Positions 1 to 12,005 of a DNA stretch of 64,000 nt are shown here, one piece after another. The notes beneath the pieces were generated by a model, which saw only the letters and a program-made list of their open reading frames with translations, did not search any database and had not been told where the DNA came from. Every line of letters begins with the position of its first letter. The stretch's first letter is position 1. This DNA is from Mesonia sp. K7. GTDB lineage: Bacteria; Bacteroidota; Bacteroidia; Flavobacteriales; Flavobacteriaceae. Position numbers and translations under genes: made by a program. The stretch is from the NCBI RefSeq assembly GCF_003233725.1, contig NZ_QKQV01000013.1:1-64000 (forward strand), given 5' to 3'.

Positions 1-84
1 AATGTAAATTTACACCAACTCAACATCTAAATATTAAAATATAGCTATCAAAAAAGAGTCAACCTATATCAGTATAACACAAAA

Positions 85-1158
85 ATGACGAAAAACATAC
101 TTTTATTATTCCTTTTAATTACAATCAAATCGTATTGTCAAAAAGTCAATATTTCGGAATTGAATGGAGATTGGATAAAATATAAGATTGAGATGAAAGA
201 CGGCAGTAGTTTAATTGACCGTTTCTTGACTGACTCTTCTTACGTTAATTACACTTTCAAAAAATTGGAAATGTGTACTAATGGAAATCCAACTCATAGA
301 GTAAATGAGATTTGTTTTCCATTCTCATTAAATCAGAACTTTATCATAACATCTTCAACTTCTGGCTACGAAATAGAAAGAGTAAAAAATGACACACTGA
401 TTCTCTGTGAAAGAATAAACGGAATGGAAAACGATAAATTAAAGAGATTCTATTTTGTTAAACAACAAAAATTATTCAATGAAATTAAAGAGGAAAAAGG
501 AGAAAGTAAAAATCAAGTTGCAAATGAATTTTATACACCAACTTTAAAGTCGAGTTTAATGCTTGAACTGAACAAAGCTTTTAAGAAAAAACACAGCAAT
601 TTTAAAACTAAAGGAATTATAAAAATAGATTTAAAAAATAAAAATATAAGTACTTCAATAAATTATACTAACACAAATGACTCAAGTAAAATTGAGAGAA
701 TTAAAAAAGTGATAAACAAATCATATAGACTTTGGAATTTAAGTAAATTCAAACACCTTGATACGCTAGAAATGCCATTCGTATTAAAAGACGAAAAAAC
801 AAAAACATTTCGTGGAATTTCAATGAAATTTTTTACCGATTCTTTCTATCAATTAGACCATTTTTATGGTGGAGACACAAGAGTAATTCAAAAAGCTGGA
901 GATTATTTCAATAAAGGAATAAGGTCTTATCAAAATAAAGATTATGAGAGTTCTATTAAAAACTTTACTAAAAGTTATGAGTTAGACCCAAAAAACATAG
1001 ATGCGCTTTATAACAGAGCTGCTATTTACTATGAAACTGGAAAACTGGAATTAGCCTGTAAAGATTGGAATGAATTATCAGAACTTGGACAGAAAAGAGG
1101 AATTGAATTATTAAAAAATAACTGTAAAAAAACTACCTACAACAATGGCTATAAGTAA
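85..1158 (+). CDS. Exported hypothetical protein with C-terminal TPR repeats
   Basis: 357 residues. Residues 1-18 form a Sec signal peptide (hydrophobic run ending SYC-Q). The middle is lysine-rich and matches no family I recognise. Residues about 275-345 hold two TPR-like helical pairs (GDYFNKGIRSYQNKDYESS, then YNRAAIYYETGKLELACKDW), so a protein-protein contact role in the periplasm or at the surface is inferred. The last residues (YNNGYK) and the stop codon are encoded by the first arm of the palindromic repeat that follows, so the natural C-terminus may have been trimmed by the repeat. It is the first complete single-gene unit of the array. Function unknown. Confidence 0.75.
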   Translation: MTKNILLLFLLITIKSYCQKVNISELNGDWIKYKIEMKDGSSLIDRFLTDSSYVNYTFKKLEMCTNGNPTHRVNEICFPFSLNQNFIITSSTSGYEIERVKNDTLILCERINGMENDKLKRFYFVKQQKLFNEIKEEKGESKNQVANEFYTPTLKSSLMLELNKAFKKKHSNFKTKGIIKIDLKNKNISTSINYTNTNDSSKIERIKKVINKSYRLWNLSKFKHLDTLEMPFVLKDEKTKTFRGISMKFFTDSFYQLDHFYGGDTRVIQKAGDYFNKGIRSYQNKDYESSIKNFTKSYELDPKNIDALYNRAAIYYETGKLELACKDWNELSELGQKRGIELLKNNCKKTTYNNGYK

Positions 1159-1271
1159 TTGCTTGTTCTCGCCTACTTCTGAAAATCCTCGCGGATTTTC
1201 AGTTAGGTGTGTACTTGCAAAAGTTAGTGCTAAACCACGCAACTACTCATAGCCGAGACCGTTGGCAACAA
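1140..1271 (+). repeat. Cassette-boundary palindrome R1 (attC-like)
   Basis: The first arm ACAATGGCTATAAGTAATTGC (from 1140) pairs with the second arm GCAACTACTCATAG plus CCGTTG near 1238-1267. The second arm carries about six extra unpaired bases (CCGAGA). Inside is a perfect hairpin, CTGAAAATCC-TCGC-GGATTTTCAG. Related copies lie at about 4306-4457 and 6960-7024. Unequal arms with extrahelical bases are a feature of integron attC sites, but the canonical GTTRRRY/RYYYAAC boxes are not matched. Confidence 0.7.
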
Positions 1272-1283
1272 TTAAACAGGACT

Positions 1284-2204
1284 ATGAAAAAATCAACATT
1301 AACTAATCTAATTGTACTTTTACTGTGTTGTTTATCAACTCAATTAAAAGGTCAAGAATCTTGGATTGACACTTCTATTCATAGTGGATTAATTGAACTG
1401 AAAACTGATTACACTTTTAAAATTTTGGTTTCAAATGATTCAATTAAAACCACAACAGAGACTCTTAACAACCTTAACAAGGCTAAACTATATTTTGACA
1501 AAATTTTTCAGACTGATTTAAATTTTGTTGTCTTATTTATAGAAAATAGAGAGTGGAGTAAATACGCTTATTTTCCACCACCTGGTTTACCTCAAGCTGG
1601 AAAAGGAAATATAATACTTGGACTGGATAAATCAATAATTTCAATGGAAGTGGAAAAAATGATTTCCAAATTACCTGAACAATATCTGGCTTCATTAAAA
1701 CTTGTTTATGGAGCAAATATTAATTTAGACCTATTTTATCGAGAGACCTTATCAATTCACGAATTAGCTCATCTTTATCATTTTAAAGAAGGAACTAAAC
1801 CTCAAAGAAAATGGTTGCAAGAATTATTTGCGACATTGAGTATGTATTCTTTCATAAAAGAAAAATTGAATTCATCTTACCCGTTGATGAACACGTATCC
1901 TGAATTCGTAATACAATCTGGAGATAGAATGGTCGAATTTAAAACTCTCAATGATTTTGAAGAAAAATATGTCCAAAAGCTAACGCCTCAAAACTATGAA
2001 TGGTTTCAAATGCAACTTTATCAAAACGCAAAATCAATATTAGATTCAAATAAAACTGATATTTTAATAAAACTTCGAGAGTTTTTAATAAATACAGACT
2101 TAAGTAAAACAAAAGTTCTTACTGACTCGGAATTATCAACTCGATTAGAAAAAGAAGTTGGAAAAGAAATAGCTGATATTTTAACTAACTGGAAATATAA
2201 ATAA
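1284..2204 (+). CDS. Exported HExxH metallopeptidase-like protein
   Basis: 306 residues from the ATG at 1284. An in-frame upstream start at 1209 lies inside the boundary repeat and would bury the signal peptide, so it was not used. Residues 1-24 are a signal peptide (LIVLLLCCLSTQLKG-Q). The zinc-binding motif HELAH is at H159-E160-H163, followed 17 residues later by E180 in WLQELFATLS, a gluzincin-like arrangement. A zinc-dependent peptidase acting outside the cytoplasm is inferred; the substrate is unknown. It is a stand-alone unit between two palindromic boundaries with no obvious promoter of its own. Confidence 0.7.
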   Translation: MKKSTLTNLIVLLLCCLSTQLKGQESWIDTSIHSGLIELKTDYTFKILVSNDSIKTTTETLNNLNKAKLYFDKIFQTDLNFVVLFIENREWSKYAYFPPPGLPQAGKGNIILGLDKSIISMEVEKMISKLPEQYLASLKLVYGANINLDLFYRETLSIHELAHLYHFKEGTKPQRKWLQELFATLSMYSFIKEKLNSSYPLMNTYPEFVIQSGDRMVEFKTLNDFEEKYVQKLTPQNYEWFQMQLYQNAKSILDSNKTDILIKLREFLINTDLSKTKVLTDSELSTRLEKEVGKEIADILTNWKYK

Positions 2205-2243
2205 CTGGTAACAACAAAGAACTGAATTAAAAAGCAAGCAATT

Positions 2244-3208
2244 CTAAGCTAATTTTGAAACAAAGTTTTCATCGTATGGTAATCCAGATTTTGCAATAGC
2301 AAAAGCTTGTTTAAGTAACTTGTTTGACACTGCTATTAAAGCTAATTTTTTGCTCTTCCCTTTGGCAACATTCGTTCATAAGTCTCTCTACAAGCCTTGT
2401 TATGTTTACAGGCCGAGAAGGCACATAAAAACAAAAGATTTCTTAACTTTTTGTTTCCTACTTTACTTATCCTGCTTCTACCTCTTACACTACTTCCAGA
2501 CTCTCTAATTGTTGGGGTTATCCCTACATAGCTGCAAAGTTGTGATGCGTTTTCAAACTTCTTAAAACCATCAGTTACAACGATTAAAAACAAAGCGGTT
2601 TTTACGCCCATTCCAGGAATGCTCTTTAACAAGGTCAATTGCTGTTGCTGATCTTGTTTCACAAGTTCCAATAACCTTGATTCTATGCCTTTCACCTCTT
2701 TATCCAAATGTTTTAAATCTCGTTGCAATGACTTGTAAACATACTTTGATGGAACTCCCAATGCCATTTCTCCATGAAGCTTGTTCTTGGTCTGTGTACG
2801 TTTCTTTAAATAGTTGTCCAACAATCTAAAGAGTTGCAAGCATTCAGTTTGGACATCTGTCAAAGCACTATACATCGGCAATTCGTTCATCGTGCCATAG
2901 GCACAAATAGCTTTTGCATCACTCTTGTCTGTTTTTACCTTGCCCAGTTTCATCTGTATAAAACGTTTAACCGACAAGGGATTGACTACAGATACTGCTA
3001 CATCGTTGTTATATAAAAACTGTGCTAACCTGTAATGATAATATCCTGTAGCTTCCATAACTACCAAGGCATCTTTTGGCAATAATTTCAATAAACCTTT
3101 AAACCCTTTTTCATCATTCTTTAATTGAAGGTGACCGGTAGTTTGGTAGTACACATCAAAGACATCCTTACTAATGTCAATACCATAAATTTTTATATCT
3201 TTATTCAT
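2244..3208 (-). pseudogene. IS110-family transposase, frameshifted near the C-terminus
   Basis: The intact frame (3208 down to 2342, 288 residues) has the RuvC-like DEDD domain: GIDISKD, VVMEATGYY and KTDKSDA. The Transposase_20 part follows, with SIPGMG and ESGSSVRGRSRISKVGNKKL, including the conserved serine region. Family members are usually about 320 residues. After PKGRAKN and a stop at 2342, another frame continues with KGKSKKLALIAVSNKLLKQ... down to ...VSKLA and a stop at 2244. That is the typical family C-terminus. A single-base loss around 2364-2374 explains this. The enzyme is therefore probably inactive, unless the shift is a sequencing error or a translational frameshift. Confidence 0.85.
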
Positions 3209-3254
3209 AATAACTGTATTTGGAAAGAATAGTTTACTTTACTTTCAACAACTT

Positions 3255-3385
3255 AAAATCGAGATCTAGGTCTCACAGAACTGAACGAAATTTAGGTAGA
3301 TAAAGAGAGGGATTATCAATGTTGTCGAAGTCTAACGCTTCACCGTATATCATAACCTTAATCCTCTCTTTGTTCTTTCTGATTT
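3255..3385 (-). ncRNA. Candidate IS110 bridge RNA (seekRNA)
   Basis: Known of the family: IS110-group recombinases are guided by a structured RNA from the noncoding end upstream of the gene. Seen here: 3302-3315 (AAAGAGAGGGATTA) pairs with 3359-3371 (TAATCCTCTCTTT) around a 43-nt loop. A second small palindrome, GAGATCTAGGTCTC, is at 3261-3274. The loop contains CGTATATC (3344-3351), identical to the right flank at 3419-3426, and TGTTGT (3320-3325), the complement of ACAACA in the left flank (2211-2216). One guide matching each strand is the layout expected of a target-binding loop. RNA ends are not known. Confidence 0.55.
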
Positions 3386-3418
3386 AGATTATAAATTTAA
3401 TAAGAATCAAACTTAAGA

Positions 3419-3545
3419 CGTATATCGCAAATTGCTTCGGTTTTCCCAAGCGGACAATCCTTCCGTCAACCAAATGTTTTAGCTTTTTACTATCTTAGTC
3501 CAAGTTCCAACGCAACTTGGACTGATATATAAAACCGTTGTGCGT
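3419..3545 (+). repeat. Cassette-boundary palindrome R2, right part (interrupted by IS110)
   Basis: This segment begins CGTATATCGCAAATTGC and ends GATATATAAAACCGTTGTGCG. It contains the hairpin AGTCCAAGTT-CCAACGC-AACTTGGACT (3498-3524). The stretch from about 3500 to 3547 matches 5178-5222 almost base for base. Its missing start lies before the IS at 2205-2214. Confidence 0.7.
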
Positions 3546-3571
3546 AAGCTGTGAAAAATAACCCTCAAAAA

Positions 3572-4306
3572 ATGAAATACAGTAAAGACGATATATTACA
3601 GATGCTGATTTCTCAATATCAATTTCAAATTGAATTTGACCCAGTTGTTGTTAAAGGAATGGATTTTGATTTCGAAAGCTCAATCTTTGAATGGATAGAT
3701 GCTTGTGATTTGGTTGACCCAATAACATTGGCAAAAATCTACCACAAAGAATTTAGAATTGATAGACCACTTTCTGAATTAGAAAGTATTTTAAAAGACG
3801 AGAATAACAGAACTGTATCAGACTTTTGTGAATACATTTCTAAACACGCTAAAAGAGAAAATATTGAACCAATAAAATTATTGGGACAGAATTGCCAAAC
3901 CGCATCAATATTCAGAACATTAAAACAAAATCTGACTGAAAAAGGAGCTGACACGACTGAATTAAAGCCAAGTTCTGAAATCAAACCATTTTTTCTAAAA
4001 TATGGTAGTATTTTAATTGATGAAGTCAATAGAATTGCGCCAGGGACAATATCTGAATTTGAATATAAATCGCATAAATTTTCTCGGATTGGACGAAATA
4101 TAATGTTCATCGGATTCTTTGCTATGATTGGAATATGGTGGGTTTGGAATTTTAATTGGTGGCTGATTTCACCAATAATTCTTGGAATTATAATATTCCA
4201 AACTGGAGACAGAAAACAACCAGAAAAATTAAATCTTGGTGGATTTCAAAACTTCCGAGAATTGATTTTTGGAATGGAGAATAAATTAAAAAAAGCCAGC
4301 ACATAA
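3572..4306 (+). CDS. Hypothetical protein with C-terminal membrane hairpin
   Basis: 244 residues from the ATG at 3572. A GTG at 3551 is in frame, but it sits directly after the boundary repeat, whereas the ATG has the AAAAA-rich leader typical here. The N-terminal 170 residues are soluble, acidic and helical (DDILQMLISQYQFQ..., FEWIDACDLVDP). Residues about 185-220 form two membrane spans (IMFIGFFAMIGIWWVW and WLISPIILGIIIF). I do not recognise the family. It is a single-gene unit between two palindromic boundaries. Confidence 0.7.
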   Translation: MKYSKDDILQMLISQYQFQIEFDPVVVKGMDFDFESSIFEWIDACDLVDPITLAKIYHKEFRIDRPLSELESILKDENNRTVSDFCEYISKHAKRENIEPIKLLGQNCQTASIFRTLKQNLTEKGADTTELKPSSEIKPFFLKYGSILIDEVNRIAPGTISEFEYKSHKFSRIGRNIMFIGFFAMIGIWWVWNFNWWLISPIILGIIIFQTGDRKQPEKLNLGGFQNFRELIFGMENKLKKAST

Positions 4307-4457
4307 CAATGGTTATAAGTAACTGCTTGTTCTCGACTTCTTCTGAAAATCCGCGAAGATTTTGCTTGCGCCAGTTCGCTGCGCTCGTGTCAGTTTGGTG
4401 CGTACTGGCTAAGTTAAGTGCTGACCCACACAACTACTCATAGCCGAGACCGTTGGC
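4306..4457 (+). repeat. Cassette-boundary palindrome R3 (attC-like)
   Basis: The first arm ACAATGGTTATAAGTAACTGC and the second arm CAACTACTCATAGCCGAGACC with GTTGGCA are of the same type as R1. The middle is longer, with CAGTTCGCTGCGCTCGTGTC instead of the R1 hairpin. The arms are conserved while the centre varies, as in integron recombination sites. Confidence 0.7.
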
Positions 4458-4484
4458 AGTAATGTAACAAAACCACGAATCTAT

Positions 4485-5102
4485 ATGATAAACCGATTTT
4501 TACAAGCCAAACATTGGCAATTATTCATTTTAATGTTCGGACTTCCAATTATTTTTCAAATATTCATTATGACTTCAATGTTTGCTGATGTTGACGCGAA
4601 TGGAAATCCAAACCCAGAAACATTTTTTAATTTCTTTAAATTGTTTCCTATAATTATGTTTTTATATACGGGCCTATTTTATGGATGGTTTTGGTCAATT
4701 GCTAATGGGTTACAGAAATTTATACCAGCTGAAAATCGTTTGAAATTGAAAAAATTTAGAATATTCTTCTTTATACCGCTGATTTATATACTATTCTTTG
4801 TTGTGATTATTGGAACCACTTTTTACGGTATTTCTACTGGAGATAATGCTGTTGGTGGAATTGTAGGAAAAATGCTTTTTGTTATTTTGCCTTTGCATTT
4901 ATTTTCAATGTTTTGTATGTTCTATCAATTATACTTTACCTCAAAAACAATCAAAACTGCTGAATTGAAACGAAAAGTCACCTTTAGTGATCATATGGGA
5001 GAATTTTTTATGATTTGGTTTTTTCCAATTGGAATTTGGGTAATACAGCCAAAAATAAATCGAATAGTAAATGGAGAAAACACTACTGACAAGAATGTAT
5101 AA
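4485..5102 (+). CDS. Integral membrane protein of unknown function
   Basis: 205 residues with four predicted membrane spans: about 13-30 (LFILMFGLPIIFQIFIM), 50-70, 92-112 (FFIPLIYILFFVVIIG) and 127-147. A conserved-looking tail, MIWFFPIGIWVIQPKINRIV (about 173-192), is one I associate with small flavobacterial membrane proteins without assigned function. There is no signal peptidase site. The gene stands alone in its unit, and its last codons run into the next boundary repeat. Confidence 0.75.
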   Translation: MINRFLQAKHWQLFILMFGLPIIFQIFIMTSMFADVDANGNPNPETFFNFFKLFPIIMFLYTGLFYGWFWSIANGLQKFIPAENRLKLKKFRIFFFIPLIYILFFVVIIGTTFYGISTGDNAVGGIVGKMLFVILPLHLFSMFCMFYQLYFTSKTIKTAELKRKVTFSDHMGEFFMIWFFPIGIWVIQPKINRIVNGENTTDKNV

Positions 5103-5222
5103 CTGCAATTGCGGCTTTGTGTCCTGCGGACACAACCGCGCAAGCATAAAAGTCAGGATTTTTAGCTATCTTAGTCCCAACTCGACCGCAACTTGGATCG
5201 ATATACAAAACCGTTGTGCGTA
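5097..5222 (+). repeat. Cassette-boundary palindrome R4 (attC-like)
   Basis: The first arm ATGTATAACTGCAATTGC is followed by a hairpin TTTGTGTCC-TGC-GGACACAA flanked by GCGG/CCGC. The second arm, GCAACTTGGATCGATATAC followed by AAAACCGTTGTGCGTAA, is almost identical to that of R2. Confidence 0.7.
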
Positions 5223-5255
5223 ATTTTACACCGTCCTAAAAACAGGCTACACAAA

Positions 5256-6353
5256 ATGATAAAATTGATTAACCTAATACTCATGTTGACCTTAAACTTT
5301 TCCTGCGTTGAAAATAAATCAACAGAAGGAGAAACTAATAAATCGGAAATTGTGAGCACCTCAAAAACTGACACTCTTAAATTTACCTCAGGGATTCGCT
5401 CCATTTTTCAAGACAGCAAAGGAAACTATTGGTTTGGAAGTATTAAAGAAGGAGTTGCGGTTTACAATGGTGAAGCATTCAGCTACTTCACTACTAATGA
5501 TGGGTTAACGGACAATCAAATCCTTTCCATTCAAGAAGACAAAGAAAGGATTATTTGGTTTAATACTCAACAAGGAGTAAGCAGTTATGATGGAGCAAAA
5601 ATCAAAAATCACACCAAAACTGACTTAGAAAAGCCAAAAAATATTTTTCCAGATCAAGGTAATGAAGTATTCCAAAGCCAATGGATGAAATTAGATAATG
5701 ACCTTTGGTTTGGAGCATGGATTAATGAGGGAGTTTATAGATTTGATGGGCAAAACTTAAATTATTTGGCATTTCCTCTTCATAAAGTCCTTAACCTTTA
5801 TGATAATTTATTTGCGGTAACAAGTATATCAAAAGGAAAAAACAATATGATATGGTTTGGTACTTACGCTGGTGTTTTTGGCTATAATGGAAACGAATTT
5901 GAAATTATCAATGATGAAACTTTAAGTTTTGATAGGAATATCGCACCTCTTCATATAAGAAGTATTCTTGAAGACTCTAAGGGTAGACTTTGGATTGGGA
6001 ACAATGGAATAGGTGTATTGCTAAAAGAAGGTGATTCAATTATTAATTTTTCTGAAAAAAAACAATTAATTCATCCTACAAGCGGAAGAAAAGGCGATAA
6101 ATCAATGCCTGGTACTCTTGAACACGTCTTCACAATTGCAGAAGATAGTAAAGGAAATATATGGTTTGGAGACAGAGATGCAGGAATTTGGAAATATGAT
6201 GGTGCAAAAATGACTAATTACACAAAGAAAGATGGACTAACAAATGATAATGCTTTATCCATTTTTGAAGATAATAATGGAAAATTGTGGTTTGGTATGG
6301 CAGACGGAAATGTATATCAGTTCAATGGAAAAACATTTGAAAAGCAGTTTTAA
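5256..6353 (+). CDS. Lipoprotein with two-component-regulator propeller repeats
   Basis: 365 residues from the ATG at 5256, chosen because it starts a lipoprotein signal (LILMLTLNFSC). An upstream ATG at 5193 is inside the boundary repeat. From residue about 40 to the end there are repeated blades of the form I-x-x-I-x-E/Q-D-x-x-G-x-x-W-F-G (IFQDSKGNYWFGSIKEGVAVY, ILEDSKGRLWIGNNG, IAEDSKGNIWFGDRDAGIW, IFEDNNGKLWFG). These are Reg_prop repeats forming a beta-propeller. Such propellers usually form the sensor half of hybrid two-component systems; here the kinase part is absent. A ligand-binding surface or periplasmic lipoprotein is inferred. Confidence 0.8.
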   Translation: MIKLINLILMLTLNFSCVENKSTEGETNKSEIVSTSKTDTLKFTSGIRSIFQDSKGNYWFGSIKEGVAVYNGEAFSYFTTNDGLTDNQILSIQEDKERIIWFNTQQGVSSYDGAKIKNHTKTDLEKPKNIFPDQGNEVFQSQWMKLDNDLWFGAWINEGVYRFDGQNLNYLAFPLHKVLNLYDNLFAVTSISKGKNNMIWFGTYAGVFGYNGNEFEIINDETLSFDRNIAPLHIRSILEDSKGRLWIGNNGIGVLLKEGDSIINFSEKKQLIHPTSGRKGDKSMPGTLEHVFTIAEDSKGNIWFGDRDAGIWKYDGAKMTNYTKKDGLTNDNALSIFEDNNGKLWFGMADGNVYQFNGKTFEKQF

Positions 6354-6371
6354 AATAAAATACGAACGCAG

Positions 6372-6436
6372 AACAATGTATGTGACGTAATGCTCCCTTA
6401 ACGGTCGCACTACGCATATACTTACCGTTGTGCGTC
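6372..6436 (+). repeat. Cassette-boundary palindrome R5 (short, clean attC-like fold)
   Basis: The arm AACAATGTATGTGACGTAATG (6372-6392) pairs with GCACTACGCATATA plus CCGTTGTG (6407-6432). The second arm has extra unpaired bases (CTTAC). This is the simplest copy and shows the shared stem plan best: ACAA[TC]G at one end and CGTTGTG at the other. Confidence 0.65.
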
Positions 6437-6454
6437 ATTTGAAAAAAATCGAAA

Positions 6455-6940
6455 ATGAAAATTGAATCAACTTCAGCTAATGGAAATTTTGAAATTAAAA
6501 ACAATGGAAAAAAACTATTGGAATTAATATATTCTAATTGGTTTGCCAGCAATGCCCAAACTTCCTTTAATTCTATTAATATAGAAATTAAACCCAAAAG
6601 CATTTGGCAAAACAAATTTGACATTTTAAAAAATGGAATTAACAAAGGAGATATTTCATTTAATTGGAAAGGAAATGTTATTATCAAATTGGAAAACGAA
6701 AATAAAGTTCAAAACCAATATTTACTCAAAGCTATTGGTTTTTGGAAACTTGGATTTGAACTAATTGACGAAAAGGAAAATAAAATTCTGTTTCTAAAAC
6801 CAAATTTTAACTGGAAAAAAGTCAACTATAATTATGAAGTTGAACTTAACGACCAAGAAGAAAACAAAGAATTAATAGAATTATTAATATATTCAGGCTT
6901 TGGAGCAAATCTCTATATGACTATGATGATGGCGGGATAA
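6455..6940 (+). CDS. Hypothetical protein, 161 residues
   Basis: A cytoplasmic-looking protein with no signal peptide. It begins MKIESTSANGNFEIKNNGKKL and is rich in alternating beta-strand patterns (LELIYSNWF, IWQNKFDILKNG, NVIIKLENENK, ILFLKPNFNWKK). It ends in a hydrophobic helix (ELIELLIYSGFGANLYMTMMMAG). Strands followed by a terminal hydrophobic helix loosely recall LURP/scramblase-like folds, but the evidence is too weak for assignment. It is a single-gene unit in the array. Confidence 0.65.
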   Translation: MKIESTSANGNFEIKNNGKKLLELIYSNWFASNAQTSFNSINIEIKPKSIWQNKFDILKNGINKGDISFNWKGNVIIKLENENKVQNQYLLKAIGFWKLGFELIDEKENKILFLKPNFNWKKVNYNYEVELNDQEENKELIELLIYSGFGANLYMTMMMAG

Positions 6941-6959
6941 AATGCTAATAAAAACTACA

Positions 6960-7120
6960 CACAACAATGGCTATAAGTAATTGCTTGTTCTCGCCTACTT
7001 CTGAAAATCCTCGAGGATTTTCAGCTTGACCGCCCGGTAAGCGTTTGAGGTATGTTTTTTAATGGAAGTGTCAAATGTTGTAACAAAACCATAGGCAAAA
7101 CCGTCGCCTATATATAAAGC
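6960..7120 (+). repeat. Cassette-boundary R6: half of the R1 type joined to a different second half
   Basis: From 6965 to about 7024 it repeats R1 almost exactly, including the CTGAAAATCC-TCGA-GGATTTTCAG hairpin. It then switches to CCGCCCGGTAAGCGTTTGAG (7030-7049) followed by TATG and a T-run, which has a close copy at 8055-8091. A hairpin ATAGGC...GCCTAT lies at about 7091-7112 before the next gene. The hybrid composition suggests recombination between two site types. Confidence 0.6.
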
Positions 7121-7126
7121 CACTCC

Positions 7127-8029
7127 ATGAACAGAATTTTAACATCCATCACGCTATTGTTTTTTATAAATTTCGGATTTGCCCAGAACGGAAAACTAAT
7201 CTCGAAAAATTTAGTTGATATTGCTAACACAGCTATTTGGGATAGAATTACGCAAGACAACAAATTACAAGCTGATTTTGAGCATCTCAAAAAATTGAAT
7301 TTTTATATTATTACCTATAAAAGTGACCACCAGGAAATTAGAGGCTTATTGGTCGAACCAAAAAAAGACGGAAAATATCCCGTTGTAATTTTCAATCGTG
7401 GCGGGAATAGGGATTTTGCTCCATTAACACTTGCCACTATGGTAATGTACACCTCCAAATTGGCAGAACAGGGCTATGTAATCATCGGTAGCAACTATCG
7501 AGAAAAAGATGAATTTGGAGGAGTAGAAATTAATGATGTGCTGAATTTAACAGAAACCGTCAAGGAAATTGAAAAAGCCGACCCGAATTGTATAGGAATG
7601 TTCGGTTGGTCAAGAGGCGGCATGATGACCTATTTGGCGTTACAAAAATCGGACAAGATCAAGACAGCTATTGTTGGAAATGGAGCCTCCGACTTGTTTG
7701 ACACGGTCAAGTTTAGACCGATAATGGAAACTAATGTGTTTGCTCAATGTATTCCTGATTACTGGAACAATAAAGATTCAGAATTAAAAAAGAGGTCAGT
7801 TATTTATTGGGCAGACGAATTGGCTAAAAATAGTAGTCTTTTAATTTTGTGCGGAACAAACGATAAAAGAGTAAACCCAAAACAAGCGGATAAAATTGCA
7901 GAAAAACTATCTGAAATCAATTATGATTTTGAATTAAGAAAATATGAAACAGACCATTTCTTTTCAGGGTATAAAACAGAACTGAACGCACTGGTAATGG
8001 AATGGTTTGACAAACGATTAAAAAAATAA
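7127..8029 (+). CDS. Secreted alpha/beta hydrolase (prolyl-oligopeptidase-like)
   Basis: 300 residues. Residues 1-19 are a signal peptide ending FGFAQ. The nucleophile elbow GWSRGG places the catalytic Ser at S162. A candidate acid lies in LILCGTNDKRVNP and the histidine in YETDHFFSG, completing a Ser-Asp-His triad in the right order. An oxyanion-type region is VIFNRGGNR. The protein is shorter than full prolyl oligopeptidases and has no propeller, as in the dienelactone-hydrolase or S9-like esterase/peptidase group. Substrate unknown. It is flanked by two copies of a 38-bp direct repeat (7030 and 8055). Confidence 0.85.
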   Translation: MNRILTSITLLFFINFGFAQNGKLISKNLVDIANTAIWDRITQDNKLQADFEHLKKLNFYIITYKSDHQEIRGLLVEPKKDGKYPVVIFNRGGNRDFAPLTLATMVMYTSKLAEQGYVIIGSNYREKDEFGGVEINDVLNLTETVKEIEKADPNCIGMFGWSRGGMMTYLALQKSDKIKTAIVGNGASDLFDTVKFRPIMETNVFAQCIPDYWNNKDSELKKRSVIYWADELAKNSSLLILCGTNDKRVNPKQADKIAEKLSEINYDFELRKYETDHFFSGYKTELNALVMEWFDKRLKK

Positions 8030-8054
8030 AAGCTGTGGACCTATAGCTACTTGT

Positions 8055-8091
8055 CCGTCTGGTAGGCGTTTGAAGTATTTTTTAATAGAAG
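8055..8091 (+). repeat. Second copy of the 38-bp direct repeat flanking the hydrolase unit
   Basis: CCGTCTGGTAGGCGTTTGAA followed by GTATTTTTTAATAGAAG matches 7030-7068 with a few changes. Directly before it, CCTATAGCTACTTG (8040-8053) resembles the GGCTATAAGTAATTG arm of the other boundaries. It probably marks the right end of the array. Confidence 0.55.
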
Positions 8092-8475
8092 AGCTACATG
8101 CTCTAATAAAATCATTCTTAAAAACCCTGTCCACCAACACAAAAAAGAAATCGTGACAAGACCAAAATCCTATTTGAAATGACCAAAATGGATTGCCCTT
8201 CGGAAGAAAACCTTATCCGGATGAAATTGGATGCGTGAATTTAGATTGAAAAAAGAGTGGTCTTTTTCTATTCAATGGTTTTCATTTTACGACCAATTTC
8301 CCCACCTCTATAGGTATTGGCTACAATCAGCACCATATACCTTCTAAAAACTCAAAAGTATTCCCTCAGGGAAAACCCTGAAATCGAATTTCCGTGATTG
8401 CCCCGAAACAAGCTTTTCTATAAGGGGCTAATTTTGTTCTCTAAACTTTAATAAAATACATAACACTTAGAGACG
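8092..8475. other. Intergenic region after the cassette array
   Basis: No coding sequence is supported. A TAATTTTG sequence (8429-8436) fits the flavobacterial -7 box TAnnTTTG and lies 40 bp before the next start, but no well-spaced TTG -33 element is obvious. A small palindrome, CCCTCAGGGAAAACCCTG, is near 8366. Confidence 0.4.
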
Positions 8476-8979
8476 ATGAATTTAAAACCGACATTTCTTG
8501 GCATTTTAATAAGTTTTGGGATTGCCTTTTCTGCCCAAGCACAAAAAGAGACCCATATTGGAGCAATGCTCGCTTACGGAAGCGAAATTGAAAACATCGG
8601 TATTGGGGTCAATGCCGAATTTCCAATGATGGAAAACCTGAGCATTTCCCCGTCCTTTATTTATTATTTCCCAAAAGAAGAATACGGCCTGAAAGTAAAC
8701 TGGTTTGAAGTAAACGCCAATGCCAATTATTATTTTGTCAACCAAGAAAACATGGGGGTTTATGCCCTCGGAGGCTTAAATTACAGTAGTGTAAAAGTGT
8801 CTTATGACGATGCTTGGCTGGGTAACTATTCTGCTTCAGACGGACGCTTTGGGCTAAATCTTGGAGGTGGGGTCAACTTCAAAATTGGTGGAAAAATCAC
8901 TCCTTTTGCCGAGCTTAAATATGTCATTATAGAAGAAGGGCAATTGGTGGCCGGTGCTGGAGTAAAATTCAGCCTATAA
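8476..8979 (+). CDS. Outer-membrane beta-barrel protein
   Basis: 167 residues. A signal peptide covers 1-22 (LISFGIAFSAQAQ). The mature part is a run of amphipathic strands with aromatic girdle residues (ENLSISPSFIYYFP, WFEVNANANYYFV, MGVYALGGLNYSS, FGLNLGGGVNFKIG, ITPFAELKYVIIE) and ends in a beta strand, GAGVKFSL. This fits the eight-stranded OMP_b-brl/OmpW-like group. It is the first gene of a group of envelope genes running to 12617 on the same strand. Confidence 0.8.
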   Translation: MNLKPTFLGILISFGIAFSAQAQKETHIGAMLAYGSEIENIGIGVNAEFPMMENLSISPSFIYYFPKEEYGLKVNWFEVNANANYYFVNQENMGVYALGGLNYSSVKVSYDDAWLGNYSASDGRFGLNLGGGVNFKIGGKITPFAELKYVIIEEGQLVAGAGVKFSL

Positions 8980-9024
8980 TCTTTTATCTGCAAAAATTTA
9001 ATATAAATCAAAAATCATAACAAA

Positions 9025-10272
9025 ATGAAATTACCTATTAAACCCATAACATTTTTAAGCCTGTTTTTTTTCAGCTTCATTTTTTTGACTGCTTGTAGTA
9101 CTGATGACGATAGTTTAGACGAACCTATTGAGGAAATACTACCTCCTATCGTCTTAGATTGCAGCTATTTTAGCGAAGACCGTGTATTGGAAAATGACCT
9201 AGAAAGACCTGTAGATTATATTGTTCCTTGCTGGGCCAACGTACAGGGAAGCTTGAAAATAGAACCCGGCGTAGTCATCGAATTTGAAAACCACGCAGGA
9301 CTACGTATAAACCTCGAAAGCAATATTTTTGAAATAAAAGGAACGGCAACCGACCCTGTTATATTAACAGGAACTTCTAAACAGAAAGGTTACTGGCGGG
9401 GGATTTTCTTAACGGAAGCATACAACCTCAATAATATCATAGAACATACCGTGATAGAATATGCCGGTTCGCAAGACCTCACAGGTTCTTCTCCTGTGTA
9501 CGAAGGTAGTTTGGCCATTAGAGGCGTTTCGAGCACAACCCCACAAGCCATAACCTTAAACCATGTAGAAATAAGCAATGGGGGTAGCCTTGGATTGGAT
9601 TTTCACAGAATCGAAAAAAATGCCACGGTAACAACTTCCCACCTCACCATTACAGGAAATGAAGGTGTACCCGTAAAAGTTTCGGCAGAGATGGCCCATG
9701 TGTTTGACAATACCTCTTCGTATAGTGGAAATGATTTAGATTTTTTCAATATTACAACGGATCATTATGAAATAGAAGACCAAACTGTTACCTGGCAAAA
9801 GTTAGACGTACCTTATTTGGTAGATGGTCGGGTACACGGTAAGAAAAACGGTCATTTAACCATTGAAGCGGGAGTAGAAATGCAGTTTAAAGCCGGAGCA
9901 TATTTACAATTTTCCCCTCTGATGCCCAGTGAAAGCACGAGTTTTAAAATTCAAGGAACAGCCTCAGAACCGGTACACTTAAAACCTTATAACGGTACGA
10001 ATTGGGGTGGAATATATTGGGGCTATACAAACGAAATGAGCAGTATTGACTATGCGATTATTGAAAAAGCTAAAGGCGATTTTCCAGTAGGAAATATTGA
10101 AAACACTGGAGCAATATATTTGTGGGCAAATCCTCACTTAACAGTTACCAATACCATATTTAAAGATTTACAGAATTGTGCTTTCTATGAAGGAACAGGT
10201 TATGATTTTGAAAACCTCTCCATAACCAATATTACATATGAAAACGTAGGTGGAGAATTTTGTACTCCCTAA
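9025..10272 (+). CDS. Surface lipoprotein with beta-helix-like repeats
   Basis: 415 residues. The lipoprotein signal ends LTAC, with S-TDDDS directly after the cysteine. An acidic patch there resembles the Bacteroidota lipoprotein export signal for the outer leaflet. The body has strand-turn repeats such as VQGSLKIEPGVVIEFENHAG, EIKGTATDPVILTGT, YWRGIFLTE and later copies (GHLTIEAGVEMQFKAGAYLQ, KIQGTASEPVHLKPY, NWGGIYWG). This gives two halves of a right-handed parallel beta-helix-like fold. It is likely a surface-exposed binding or carbohydrate-related protein; no catalytic residues can be assigned. Confidence 0.8.
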   Translation: MKLPIKPITFLSLFFFSFIFLTACSTDDDSLDEPIEEILPPIVLDCSYFSEDRVLENDLERPVDYIVPCWANVQGSLKIEPGVVIEFENHAGLRINLESNIFEIKGTATDPVILTGTSKQKGYWRGIFLTEAYNLNNIIEHTVIEYAGSQDLTGSSPVYEGSLAIRGVSSTTPQAITLNHVEISNGGSLGLDFHRIEKNATVTTSHLTITGNEGVPVKVSAEMAHVFDNTSSYSGNDLDFFNITTDHYEIEDQTVTWQKLDVPYLVDGRVHGKKNGHLTIEAGVEMQFKAGAYLQFSPLMPSESTSFKIQGTASEPVHLKPYNGTNWGGIYWGYTNEMSSIDYAIIEKAKGDFPVGNIENTGAIYLWANPHLTVTNTIFKDLQNCAFYEGTGYDFENLSITNITYENVGGEFCTP

Positions 10273-10287
10273 TCTTCCAATTTAAAG

Positions 10288-10333
10288 TAAACGGCAAGCT
10301 TGTTTTATGAGTTAGTCAGTGGCTTGCCGTTTA
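10288..10333 (+). terminator. Intrinsic terminator-like hairpin
   Basis: TAAACGGCAAGC and GCTTGCCGTTTA form a perfect 12-bp stem with a 22-base loop, followed by TTTTTTA. It lies 15 bp after the 9025-10272 gene. Confidence 0.6.
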
Positions 10334-10366
10334 TTTTTTAATCCCTTTTGATAAATTTTAAAAACC

Positions 10367-10945
10367 ATGCAGAATTTTAAACAAATACACATTTTTAGCC
10401 TATGGCTTTTAGCATCACTTGCGCTATTTTCTTGTAGTAAAGACGACGATGAAAATGAAACTCCTGGCACTACAGTAAACATTGAAGATGGCCGCATTGC
10501 CTTTGAGGTTTCAGGCTTTGAGAATACCTTTATGGAAGGTGATGTCGTTTATTACCTCAACAATCAGTACGATATTAAATACTTTCAAATAGCTGACAAT
10601 GAAGCCATCACTCATAATGATGCAATGTGGCACATCACTTTTGAGCAGAACTCTAACAATGAGATAGCCTTGCCGGAACCTGGGGAGTACCCCATTGTTC
10701 AAGGTTTGACAGATACCTATGACCAAACCTCCTTTAACGCGACCATCTCAGCATGGACGAATGTCATGACAGAAACGGGAACCACATTTGGAGGGAATAA
10801 CGGAGCGGTAACTGGTACACTTACCATAGTAAGCAATACAGACGAAATCGTAAAAGGCACTTTCAGTTTTGAAGCTTTTTCTTCTGAAGGTGAAAAAATA
10901 ACCGTAACCAACGGTCAATTTGCGGCACCAAAAAACACTTGGTAA
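10367..10945 (+). CDS. Lipoprotein of unknown function
   Basis: 192 residues. The lipobox LFSC is followed by SKDDDENE, again an outer-leaflet-type acidic signal. The rest is beta-rich (GRIAFEVSGFENTFMEGDVV, GTLTIVSNTDEIVKGTFSFE) and ends with a strand typical of small Bacteroidota immunoglobulin-like lipoproteins (FSFEAFSSEGEKITVTNGQF). No enzymatic motif. It is 94 bp downstream of the previous lipoprotein and 22 bp before the next start. Confidence 0.75.
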   Translation: MQNFKQIHIFSLWLLASLALFSCSKDDDENETPGTTVNIEDGRIAFEVSGFENTFMEGDVVYYLNNQYDIKYFQIADNEAITHNDAMWHITFEQNSNNEIALPEPGEYPIVQGLTDTYDQTSFNATISAWTNVMTETGTTFGGNNGAVTGTLTIVSNTDEIVKGTFSFEAFSSEGEKITVTNGQFAAPKNTW

Positions 10946-10967
10946 ATTTTATTTAAACCTAAAAAAA

Positions 10968-11399
10968 ATGAAAACAAACCTATTACATACCGTTCTACTG
11001 CTTATTACCTGCATTTGGTTAAGCAATCATAAGGTTTGTGCTCAACATATAGACAAAGAAGCCCTTATAGGTACTTGGGAAATAGAGGGCACGATGATGG
11101 GCGATAATGGAGAAGGTTGGGTCATGCCCCATCAACAATCTGCTCCCGATTGCGGAAAAGACCATAGTGTATTTTCTTCAGATGGAAACGCTAAAGAAGT
11201 AAAGTACACATCAACTTGTGAGCCTAAAGAGCAAATCCTTCAATGGGAATTAGAAGGCTCTAAATTGATCCTTTCAAAAGGAGAAAGAAGGATCACCTGG
11301 CATTTATTAAGTTTAGAGGACGGTCAACTAAAAGTTGGCATACAAATGCGACCAGATTCTGAACGGAAAATGTACGTAGCTTATAAAAAACAAAATTAA
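10968..11399 (+). CDS. Secreted lipocalin-like protein
   Basis: 143 residues from the ATG at 10968, after an A-rich leader. A further in-frame start at 10920 overlaps the previous gene and gives no clean signal peptide. Signal peptide 1-25 (VLLLITCIWLSNHKVCAQ). The motif ALIGTWEIEGTMMGD starts a lipocalin-like barrel with strands SDGNAKEVKYTS, ILQWELEGSKLILSKGERRI and LLSLEDGQLKVGIQ. Two cysteines (PDCGKD and STCEPK) could form a disulfide. Ligand unknown. Confidence 0.75.
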   Translation: MKTNLLHTVLLLITCIWLSNHKVCAQHIDKEALIGTWEIEGTMMGDNGEGWVMPHQQSAPDCGKDHSVFSSDGNAKEVKYTSTCEPKEQILQWELEGSKLILSKGERRITWHLLSLEDGQLKVGIQMRPDSERKMYVAYKKQN

Positions 11400-11422
11400 T
11401 ATTACCTAAAAACCTTATAACA

Positions 11423-11971
11423 ATGAGACATATACAATTATTCCTGTTTGCCCTATCCGTAATGAGTTTAGGTGTTTTTTCTGCTTGCTCAGACGATGAC
11501 ACCAACGGGTCAGGTGCTATGATCGACGAAAACGAACACACTTATAACATCGAGATAGCCGGAGGTGAAACCTTTTCAGGGAGTGTTCCCAAAAATACAG
11601 GCGGTTTGTACTATCCAGTTTCCTATATTGAATACAACGAAGAGGTAGGCAGTAAAATATTAACAGGCTTGCTGCAAGACGCTGGAAAATTTCAATTTGG
11701 GATAGGTTTGGCGCTGGATAATAATAACAACCCCAGCATTCAAGGTAGTGGACCAGGATTAACATTCGGTGAGTGGGGTGTTGAAGATAAATATCGACCG
11801 GTAGGTAATATTAATATGGACCTAGAAAATTATCAAGAGCACAGCATTTCTTTATATGGAGAAGAAGCTACTGTGGCATCATATACCTTAAGCTTTAGCG
11901 GAAAGTTTAAATTAGGAGCCGAAGGCGATGAGGTAAACGTAACCGGAAAAATAGGGGTTGCCGCTCCCTAA
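11423..11971 (+). CDS. Lipoprotein of unknown function
   Basis: 182 residues. The lipobox FSAC is followed by SDDDTNGSG, the acidic outer-leaflet-type signal. The mature part has ETFSGSVPKNTGG, a long beta-rich middle (KFQFGIGLALDNNNN) and a final strand (SYTLSFSGKFKLGAEGDEVNV). This resembles the general plan of the 10367 protein, which also ends in a strand about a property that is modified. Likely co-transcribed with its neighbours. Confidence 0.75.
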   Translation: MRHIQLFLFALSVMSLGVFSACSDDDTNGSGAMIDENEHTYNIEIAGGETFSGSVPKNTGGLYYPVSYIEYNEEVGSKILTGLLQDAGKFQFGIGLALDNNNNPSIQGSGPGLTFGEWGVEDKYRPVGNINMDLENYQEHSISLYGEEATVASYTLSFSGKFKLGAEGDEVNVTGKIGVAAP

Positions 11972-12005
11972 AGAAAAATTATATCACATATTAAAACTTA
12001 ATCAA

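Follow-up and report, generated by a model that had tools for sequence, protein, structure and literature searches.

The 64,000-nt stretch of DNA analysed here (the window) harbors a 1201-bp insertion sequence of the IS110 family, on the minus strand and apparently without a target duplication, which interrupts the left arm of an attC-like site (Table 1). Its transposase scores 198 bits against NCBIfam NF033542 ("IS110 family RNA-guided transposase", cut-off 140), and the nearest solved chains are those of ISCro4 and IS621. The segments GID, MEAT, KTD..DA and ESGSSV line up with ISCro4 in an alignment; we take them to be the DEDD residues and the C-terminal SG motif. The open reading frame is 288 aa long as compared with 321-323 aa in most relatives, and a three-frame comparison places the remainder of the C terminus in another frame, intact transposases being present in relatives. 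Judged from this frameshift, the window copy may be dead. Its DNA is matched once in its own 2.55-Mb genome, indicating a single copy. A noncoding region of 209 nt lies upstream of the transposase, as is the arrangement in IS110; an Rfam search of window positions 1-12000 gave no match.

Table 1. Coordinates of the insertion sequence, its predicted RNA features and the attC-like sites in the window
Feature	Position	Strand	Basis or remark
IS110-family insertion sequence	2217..3417	-	ends CTTAAGTTT...CAGTTCTT on transposase strand; from relatives and uninterrupted sites
IS110 transposase ORF, 288 aa, DEDD_Tnp_IS110 + Transposase_20	2342..3208	-	Pfam, NCBIfam, solved chains
Remainder of transposase C terminus, other reading frame (frameshifted copy)	2244..2360 (upper coordinate approximate)	-	three-frame translation against relatives
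Noncoding region, 209 nt, predicted bridge RNA	3209..3417	-	alignment and consensus fold
Target-loop stem, 5' arm	3359..3371	-	sequence check and consensus fold
Target-loop stem, 3' arm	3302..3315	-	sequence check and consensus fold; stem with one bulged base
Left target guide GATATAC	3345..3351 (GG extension to 3343)	-	identical to flank 3420-3426
Right target guide ACAACA	3320..3325	-	pairs target TGTTGT (plus-strand ACAACA 2211-2216)
Left donor guide TCAGTTCT	3277..3284	-	same as RE end 2218-2225
Right donor guide UUAAG	3252..3256	-	pairs LE CTTAA (3413-3417); by eye in alignment
Left (R-box) end of interrupted attC-like site, cassette end GGTAACAAC + A	2207..2216	+	site and cassette-end comparison
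Remainder of interrupted attC-like site	3418..3542	+	model hit 3420-3539 minus (bottom strand), 46.7 bits, E 2e-7
Uninterrupted attC-like site upstream, bottom strand folds	1147..1263	+	95.1 bits
Uninterrupted attC-like site	4311..4454	+	40.2 bits
attC-like site, degenerate left arm, without TGTT at standard spacing	5097..5215	+	26.5 bits
attC-like site	6969..7105	+	25.5 bits

The attC-like sites were described by a covariance model built from 25 of 37 sites, the window site and some occupied sites among them. The left R-box end and the two pre-stem bases were omitted from it, so that the model does not presume any particular empty site. In the 80 loci of related elements described below it finds 151 sites, on a single strand except for 3 opposite-strand echoes. 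The 16-pair stem pairs in 94.3% of cells on the bottom strand against 82.3% on the top strand, and among the 400 cells the top-strand mismatches include 57 A.C, which become G.T on the bottom, against 6 of the reverse kind. With 150 of 2475 candidates scored, the model gives 26 hits at E<=1e-3 in the genome of the window, including one opposite-strand echo; arrays lie in C13, in C22 and in the window, and the sites within an array share one orientation. Cassettes tend to start with GTT-N6 and to finish with a complementary N6-AAC: of 81 cassettes compared, 61 agree at all six positions, where shuffles average 1.9 and reach at most 8; neighbouring sites more than 4.5 kb apart or without the standard spacing were omitted. 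The complementarity extends across the insertion sequence in 17 of the 25 cassettes that end at an occupied site. The window array looks worn, since its three tested cassettes match at 3, 3 and 5 of 6 end positions. The core of integron cassettes follows the consensus GTTRRRY / RYYYAAC; here GTT/AAC is present and the RRRY part is often off, for example GTTGCCA (by inspection).

Relatives were fetched by transposase similarity alone, as the best 80 of 321 (71-82% amino acid identity), and their host genomes are presumably mostly Flavobacteriaceae; a search of a viral collection returned one distant locus, L082, which was set aside. Of the 81 elements (80 loci and the window), 75 could be assigned a left end, 71 a right end and 79 a loop; the 10 without a right end are cut by the contig (9) or have a variant end (L068). 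Readable ends start with a CTTAAGTTT-like and finish with a CAGTTCTT-like sequence, followed by flank. The ends of the window element, ambiguous by 1 nt because the second N of the site is a T here, leave both flanks that match the loop outside the element.

Most other copies sit in the same arm, a check that the first-pass annotation had proposed. Sixty of the 72 elements whose left flank extends over 110 nt or more, the window copy included, begin exactly 2 nt past a hit of the attC-like model; of the remaining 12, ten have a TATAC-type L box at the end of the flank, and L031 and L081 lack it. Eight more copies within the same loci show the identical junction at other sites. All 71 right flanks read are TGTTR or one base off (TGTTG 45, TGTTA 21, one base off 5). 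Most copies thus use one fixed insertion point in one orientation, and the model-placed copies all lie in one arm; the right flanks and the cassettes differ from copy to copy. The L box and GTT are separated by 3 nt in the left arm of the site and by 6 nt in the right arm, a difference that would explain why the right arm is unused.

The empty site was derived from a comparison of 147 sites (142 of the 151 model hits and 5 window sites; 6 partial or short hits and the 3 opposite-strand palindromic echoes were left out). Of these, 69 are occupied, namely by 60 model-adjacent elements, 8 further copies and L058, and 78 are uninterrupted. Among the latter, 68 have TGTT exactly 2 nt beyond the stem. 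When the flanks are joined as NN|TGTT, 56 of 63 cases show an ungapped match that spans the junction (1204 matches); five shifted alternatives, in which CTT, CT or T is kept or 1-2 nt are dropped, do so in at most 40 of 63 (166 matches), these totals being inflated equally for all variants because the compared loci overlap one another. Since uninterrupted sites and joined flanks both favor NN|TGTT, we infer that the element runs CTTAAG...CAGTTCTT and makes no target duplication. An empty site of the form NN-CTT-TGTT, with a duplicated core CT, was ruled out by the same two comparisons. The second N is T in 43 of 69 occupied as compared with 34 of 68 uninterrupted sites, and a possible trace of the element's own T was considered. 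The exact ends, which the first-pass annotation had proposed to fix from an empty site, are therefore set by uninterrupted sites of relatives and joined flanks; for the window copy, an orthologous empty site was not found, and its joined flanks resemble another site at 75% over 44 nt, a weak match. L031 and L141 have a cassette-type right flank next to an unrelated left flank, as though the left side had been deleted or rearranged. In L055, L060 and L078, from three differently named genomes, the right arm of the interrupted site continues into a shared CGTCAGACTGTCT, perhaps the end of another mobile element.

The noncoding region has a conserved fold. A consensus from 21 of 39 noncoding regions (the window and 20 relatives) comprises an outer stem and the target-loop and donor-loop stems, each with an inner hairpin, and its 36 pairs are formed in 98.8% of cells. 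Changes on both sides are seen in 13 pairs against 6.4 +- 1.3 in shuffles, a number reached by 0 of 500, and pairing drops to 46-53% in slid controls. The window sequence folded alone is no better than its shuffles (z -0.12), so the structural support comes from the alignment. In this alignment the two-loop fold with compensatory changes is conserved among relatives. The stem reported around the loop at first agrees in coordinates with the sequence, with one bulged base, and the two matches reported within the loop were verified as well: CGTATATC at 3344-3351 equals the right flank 3419-3426, and TGTTGT at 3320-3325 is complementary to ACAACA at 2211-2216. Estimated by hand, the probability that a 43-nt loop matches a given fixed flank by chance is about 6e-4 for an 8-mer and about 1% for a 6-mer.

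The guides of the first loop correspond to opposite strands of the target, and the second loop matches the ends of the element. The left donor guide equals the element end at 8 of 8 positions in the 68 of 81 elements compared, and in the one element whose end differs (TCAGATCT) the donor guide is altered in the same way. The right donor guide is weaker in relatives with UCAAG (by inspection).

On the side of the target, the left guide covaries with the left flank. In a test of 73 of the 81 elements, including L071 despite its out-of-register loop, 45 have a guide that agrees with their own left flank at all 7 positions; 10,000 shuffles give 16.6 such elements on average and never more than 30. 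Covariation of this kind was one of the checks proposed in the first-pass annotation, and it supports the target-binding arrangement of an IS110 bridge RNA that was suggested there. Counted once each, the 22 distinct guide/flank pairs have a mean match equalled by 1 of 10,000 shuffles and a number of exact 7/7 matches equalled by 207 of 10,000. TATACAC, TATATAC, TTTATAC, GATATAC (window), TATAGCC and GTTATAC are among the classes with a match. The right target guide reads CAACA, pairing with TGTTG, in 65 of 66 elements read (3 unread), and because it is nearly invariant hardly any covariation comes from that side. Its sole variant, GAACT in L081, fits the flank AGTTA; another AGTTA flank is accompanied by CAACA.

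More diverged relatives carry changed guides. A class-wide search of 295 genomes found 22 with a match at E<=1e-30 (the genome of the window included), and 17 of the fetched diverged loci were inspected, with ends and arms read by eye; the ends of L138 and L161 are unreadable. At about 60% identity, L139 sits behind an attC-type arm (by eye), and L142, L159 and L163 (59% identity), all from one genome that has six copies in all, five within 28 kb, share the guide ATAACCGC between left flanks AAACCGC, AAACCGC and AAACCAC and right flanks TGTTATG, TGTTAGC and TGTTATA. In L140 the guide match is exact (CATACAC) and the attC body is absent; L141 retains only the right half of a site, the arm being missing on the left, and L143 lies in an unrelated place. 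A search with the attC model at the insertion points of these relatives of about 60% identity found no site, so that the term attC-like is for them a reading by eye. L144 (47% identity) has a guide that includes TATACAC and a right flank TGTTAGG, and may also be aimed at attC-type arms. At 39% identity, L148, L162 and L165, three copies of one element, have the guide CGTCATTG and lie between (C/T)GTCAT and TGCGA(G/A)G (ends by eye), in a REP-like GTCATTGCGAG repeat with matching guides. L145 resembles them, and L146, L147 and L160 fit more poorly, the REP-type group covering about 39-44% identity. From these comparisons it is plausible that guides in the wider group were retuned between REP-type and attC-type targets, in whichever direction.

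The attC-like arrays are accompanied by a candidate integrase. In C22, a tyrosine recombinase of 399 aa lies ahead of the array. This XerA-like gene (C22:224664-225863, equivalent to L103:3665-4864) is followed by an attI-like site and four attC-like sites at L103:4890-8400, and the recombinase and its array are a possible undescribed integron platform. Of 149 genomes of the family, 55 encode a relative of the recombinase at E<=1e-60. Among 30 such loci fetched, 15 contain together 21 attC-like sites, all downstream of the recombinase and in its orientation, the linked recombinase being recognised by its position next to cassette model hits. In 11 of these 15 loci the 9-nt end of the first cassette is repeated just behind the recombinase gene, as an attI-like site, which lies 27-33 nt past the stop in the 7 loci where the stop was placed. 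In several integrase loci (e.g. G053 and G103) the contig breaks off shortly after the recombinase gene, which would be expected where assembly is halted by repeated cassette sites.

Among solved structures the C22 integrase is nearest to XerA and is 43 residues shorter than IntI4 around the IntI insertion (20 residues against 63). Its best NCBIfam match is "XerA_Arch, site-specific tyrosine recombinase/integron integrase", at 210 bits with a cut-off of 220, and on TIGR02249 it reaches 198 bits, under the cut-off of 265. Eleven members aligned, out of the 30 loci, have no long insertion, the IntI-specific one being missing, and all 11 match both the XerA_Arch and the IntI families at E<=1e-40. 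An IntI profile search at E<=1e-40 found 0 of 80 family genomes, which says little, because the threshold is stricter than the best single stretch of the genome's own recombinase (1.5e-31). Detection by IntI profiles could overlook a XerA-like integrase. The first-pass annotation had likened the target to an integron attC site: the anatomy agrees with this, and the host integrase differs from a canonical IntI. We call the host system integron-like rather than an integron because the IntI insertion is missing and recombination at the sites is a prediction.

Comparison of the sequences makes it highly probable that the window element belongs to a clade of IS110-type, bridge-RNA-guided insertion sequences specialised on the left arm of attC-like sites in the cassette arrays of Flavobacteriaceae. 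The noncoding region would be transcribed from a circular form of the element. In the first loop, base-pairing with the target would involve 7-8 nt on the 5' side that repeat the L box of the arm and 5-6 nt on the 3' side that pair with TGTTR, the R box; the second loop would pair with the joined ends of the element itself (TCAGTTCT / CTTAA). The DEDD/Ser transposase would then recombine the circle into NN|TGTT, and the use of the left arm only would be set by the spacing of the L and R boxes. As the insertion parts the R box from the hairpin, the cassette junction would probably be frozen.

A loop that resembles the arm could arise without any guiding, if the motif is simply conserved and all elements descend from one insertion copied together with its flanks. 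The arm motif is indeed conserved, to the point that even shuffled pairs of guide and flank agree on average at 5.64 of 7 positions; true pairs nevertheless average 6.44, above all 10,000 shuffles, right flanks and cassettes vary among copies, and guide and target change together in the diverged relatives, all of which makes this explanation extremely improbable. Guidance of another kind would be involved if the transposase read the folded attC hairpin, as a single-stranded structure, rather than a sequence through an RNA. The strong folding of the targets on one strand is in line with such recognition, as are known IS110/IS1111 relatives that sit in palindromic repeats, e.g. REP, according to the available part of PMC11187229. 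Against this, the insertion junction is not within the stem, the guide tracks the subtype of the arm that it matches, and L140 combines an exact guide match with the lack of an attC body. Moreover, all model-placed copies occupy a single arm of a hairpin whose two arms are almost symmetric, and we regard recognition of the hairpin as very improbable.

The nature of the target is a separate matter, since the repeats might be ordinary REP-like palindromes and not integron-type sites. The 39%-identity relative in REP-like GTCATTGCGAG repeats speaks for this, and so, with little weight given its over-strict threshold, does the IntI model search. Ordinary palindromes would hardly account for sites in a single orientation within arrays, for ends that are complementary and specific to each cassette (61/81, where the shuffled maximum is 8), for a conserved tyrosine recombinase with all 21 sites downstream in its orientation at 15 of 30 loci, or for an attI-like site with the first cassette's own end in 11 of 15, and this alternative appears improbable. 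The picture that we favor, with some reservation, is that Flavobacteriaceae harbor a widespread undescribed class of integron, with a XerA-like integrase that lacks the IntI insertion and is transcribed towards an attI-like site, and with cassettes whose attC-like sites fold on the bottom strand. A bridge-RNA IS110 clade related to REP-targeting elements would be its dedicated parasite and would retune its guide to each subtype of the attC arm.

Elements of the IS1111-attC group are known from Proteobacterial cassettes. Members such as ISKpn4, ISPst6 and ISPa25 insert under RNA guidance at one end of integron attC sites, and the available part of the source describes for this group a downstream noncoding region, subterminal inverted repeats and the reverse guide order (PMC11187229). 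The elements studied here are similar in having a DEDD transposase and in inserting at one end of attC-type sites (60/72), and differ in the RNA lying upstream of the transposase in the window element, in the IS110 guide order and in their occurrence in Flavobacteriaceae. The parallel drawn at first with the IS1111-attC group is therefore real as to insertion into attC-like sites, because RNA-guided targeting of attC is known for the IS1111 group, whereas the element itself comes from the other branch and is of IS110 type, with its RNA upstream, not of IS1111 type.

IS110 bridge RNAs have two internal loops, the first matching the bottom strand of the target on its 5' side and the top strand on its 3' side and the second being the donor loop, as given in the available part of PMC11208160; the bridge RNA paper confines attC to its reference list. 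The window element is like IS621 and ISCro4 in its two loops, in the strand arrangement of the guides and in these being its nearest solved transposases. A difference concerns the core: IS621 has CT in both donor and target, according to the part of the source available, whereas a dinucleotide common to both is absent here, the target being NN|TGTT (GT, AT, GG and others) and the element end CTT, so that in the window element NN of the target and TT of the element share nothing. The shared core is a trait of IS621, and the available text of the source does not state that it defines the family. ISEc21, an IS110-family element described with a seekRNA, likewise has an upstream noncoding region in which the bottom-strand match lies 5' of the top-strand match; its target is different, and use of attC is not mentioned in the available part of PMC11187229.

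What is already known is thus the RNA-guided insertion into attC by elements of the IS1111 type, and what is new is an IS110-type clade, its bacterial family and its unusual integron-like host. A second branch of RNA-guided DEDD transposases would also have adopted integron-type sites as targets, and its natural retuning of guides offers directly testable examples. As the insertions mark cassette junctions, they may record the history of arrays.

The host system is the wider surprise, as it indicates an integron-like cassette system in a large marine family. It is like chromosomal integrons in its attI-like site, its complementary cassette ends, its bottom-strand folding and the tyrosine recombinase beside the array, and unlike those with IntI in that the integrase is nearest to XerA, falls below the TIGR02249 cut-off and is transcribed towards the array. 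Surveys, in the parts available, count Bacteroidota among the integron-bearing phyla, and the one that names cases reports, in its available part, one complete integron, in Salinibacter ruber. The literature searched (mostly without subscription papers, and without bioRxiv preprints) yielded, among the records listed, neither a flavobacterial integron nor an IS110 element in attC sites of Bacteroidota. In the genome of the window, the C13 array (L104, L105) comprises about 15 cassette sites, and some of its cassette genes appear defence-like by eye: a cytosine methyltransferase with the next ORF at L104:15703-18044, and an adenine methyltransferase-like ORF at L104:8802-9701.
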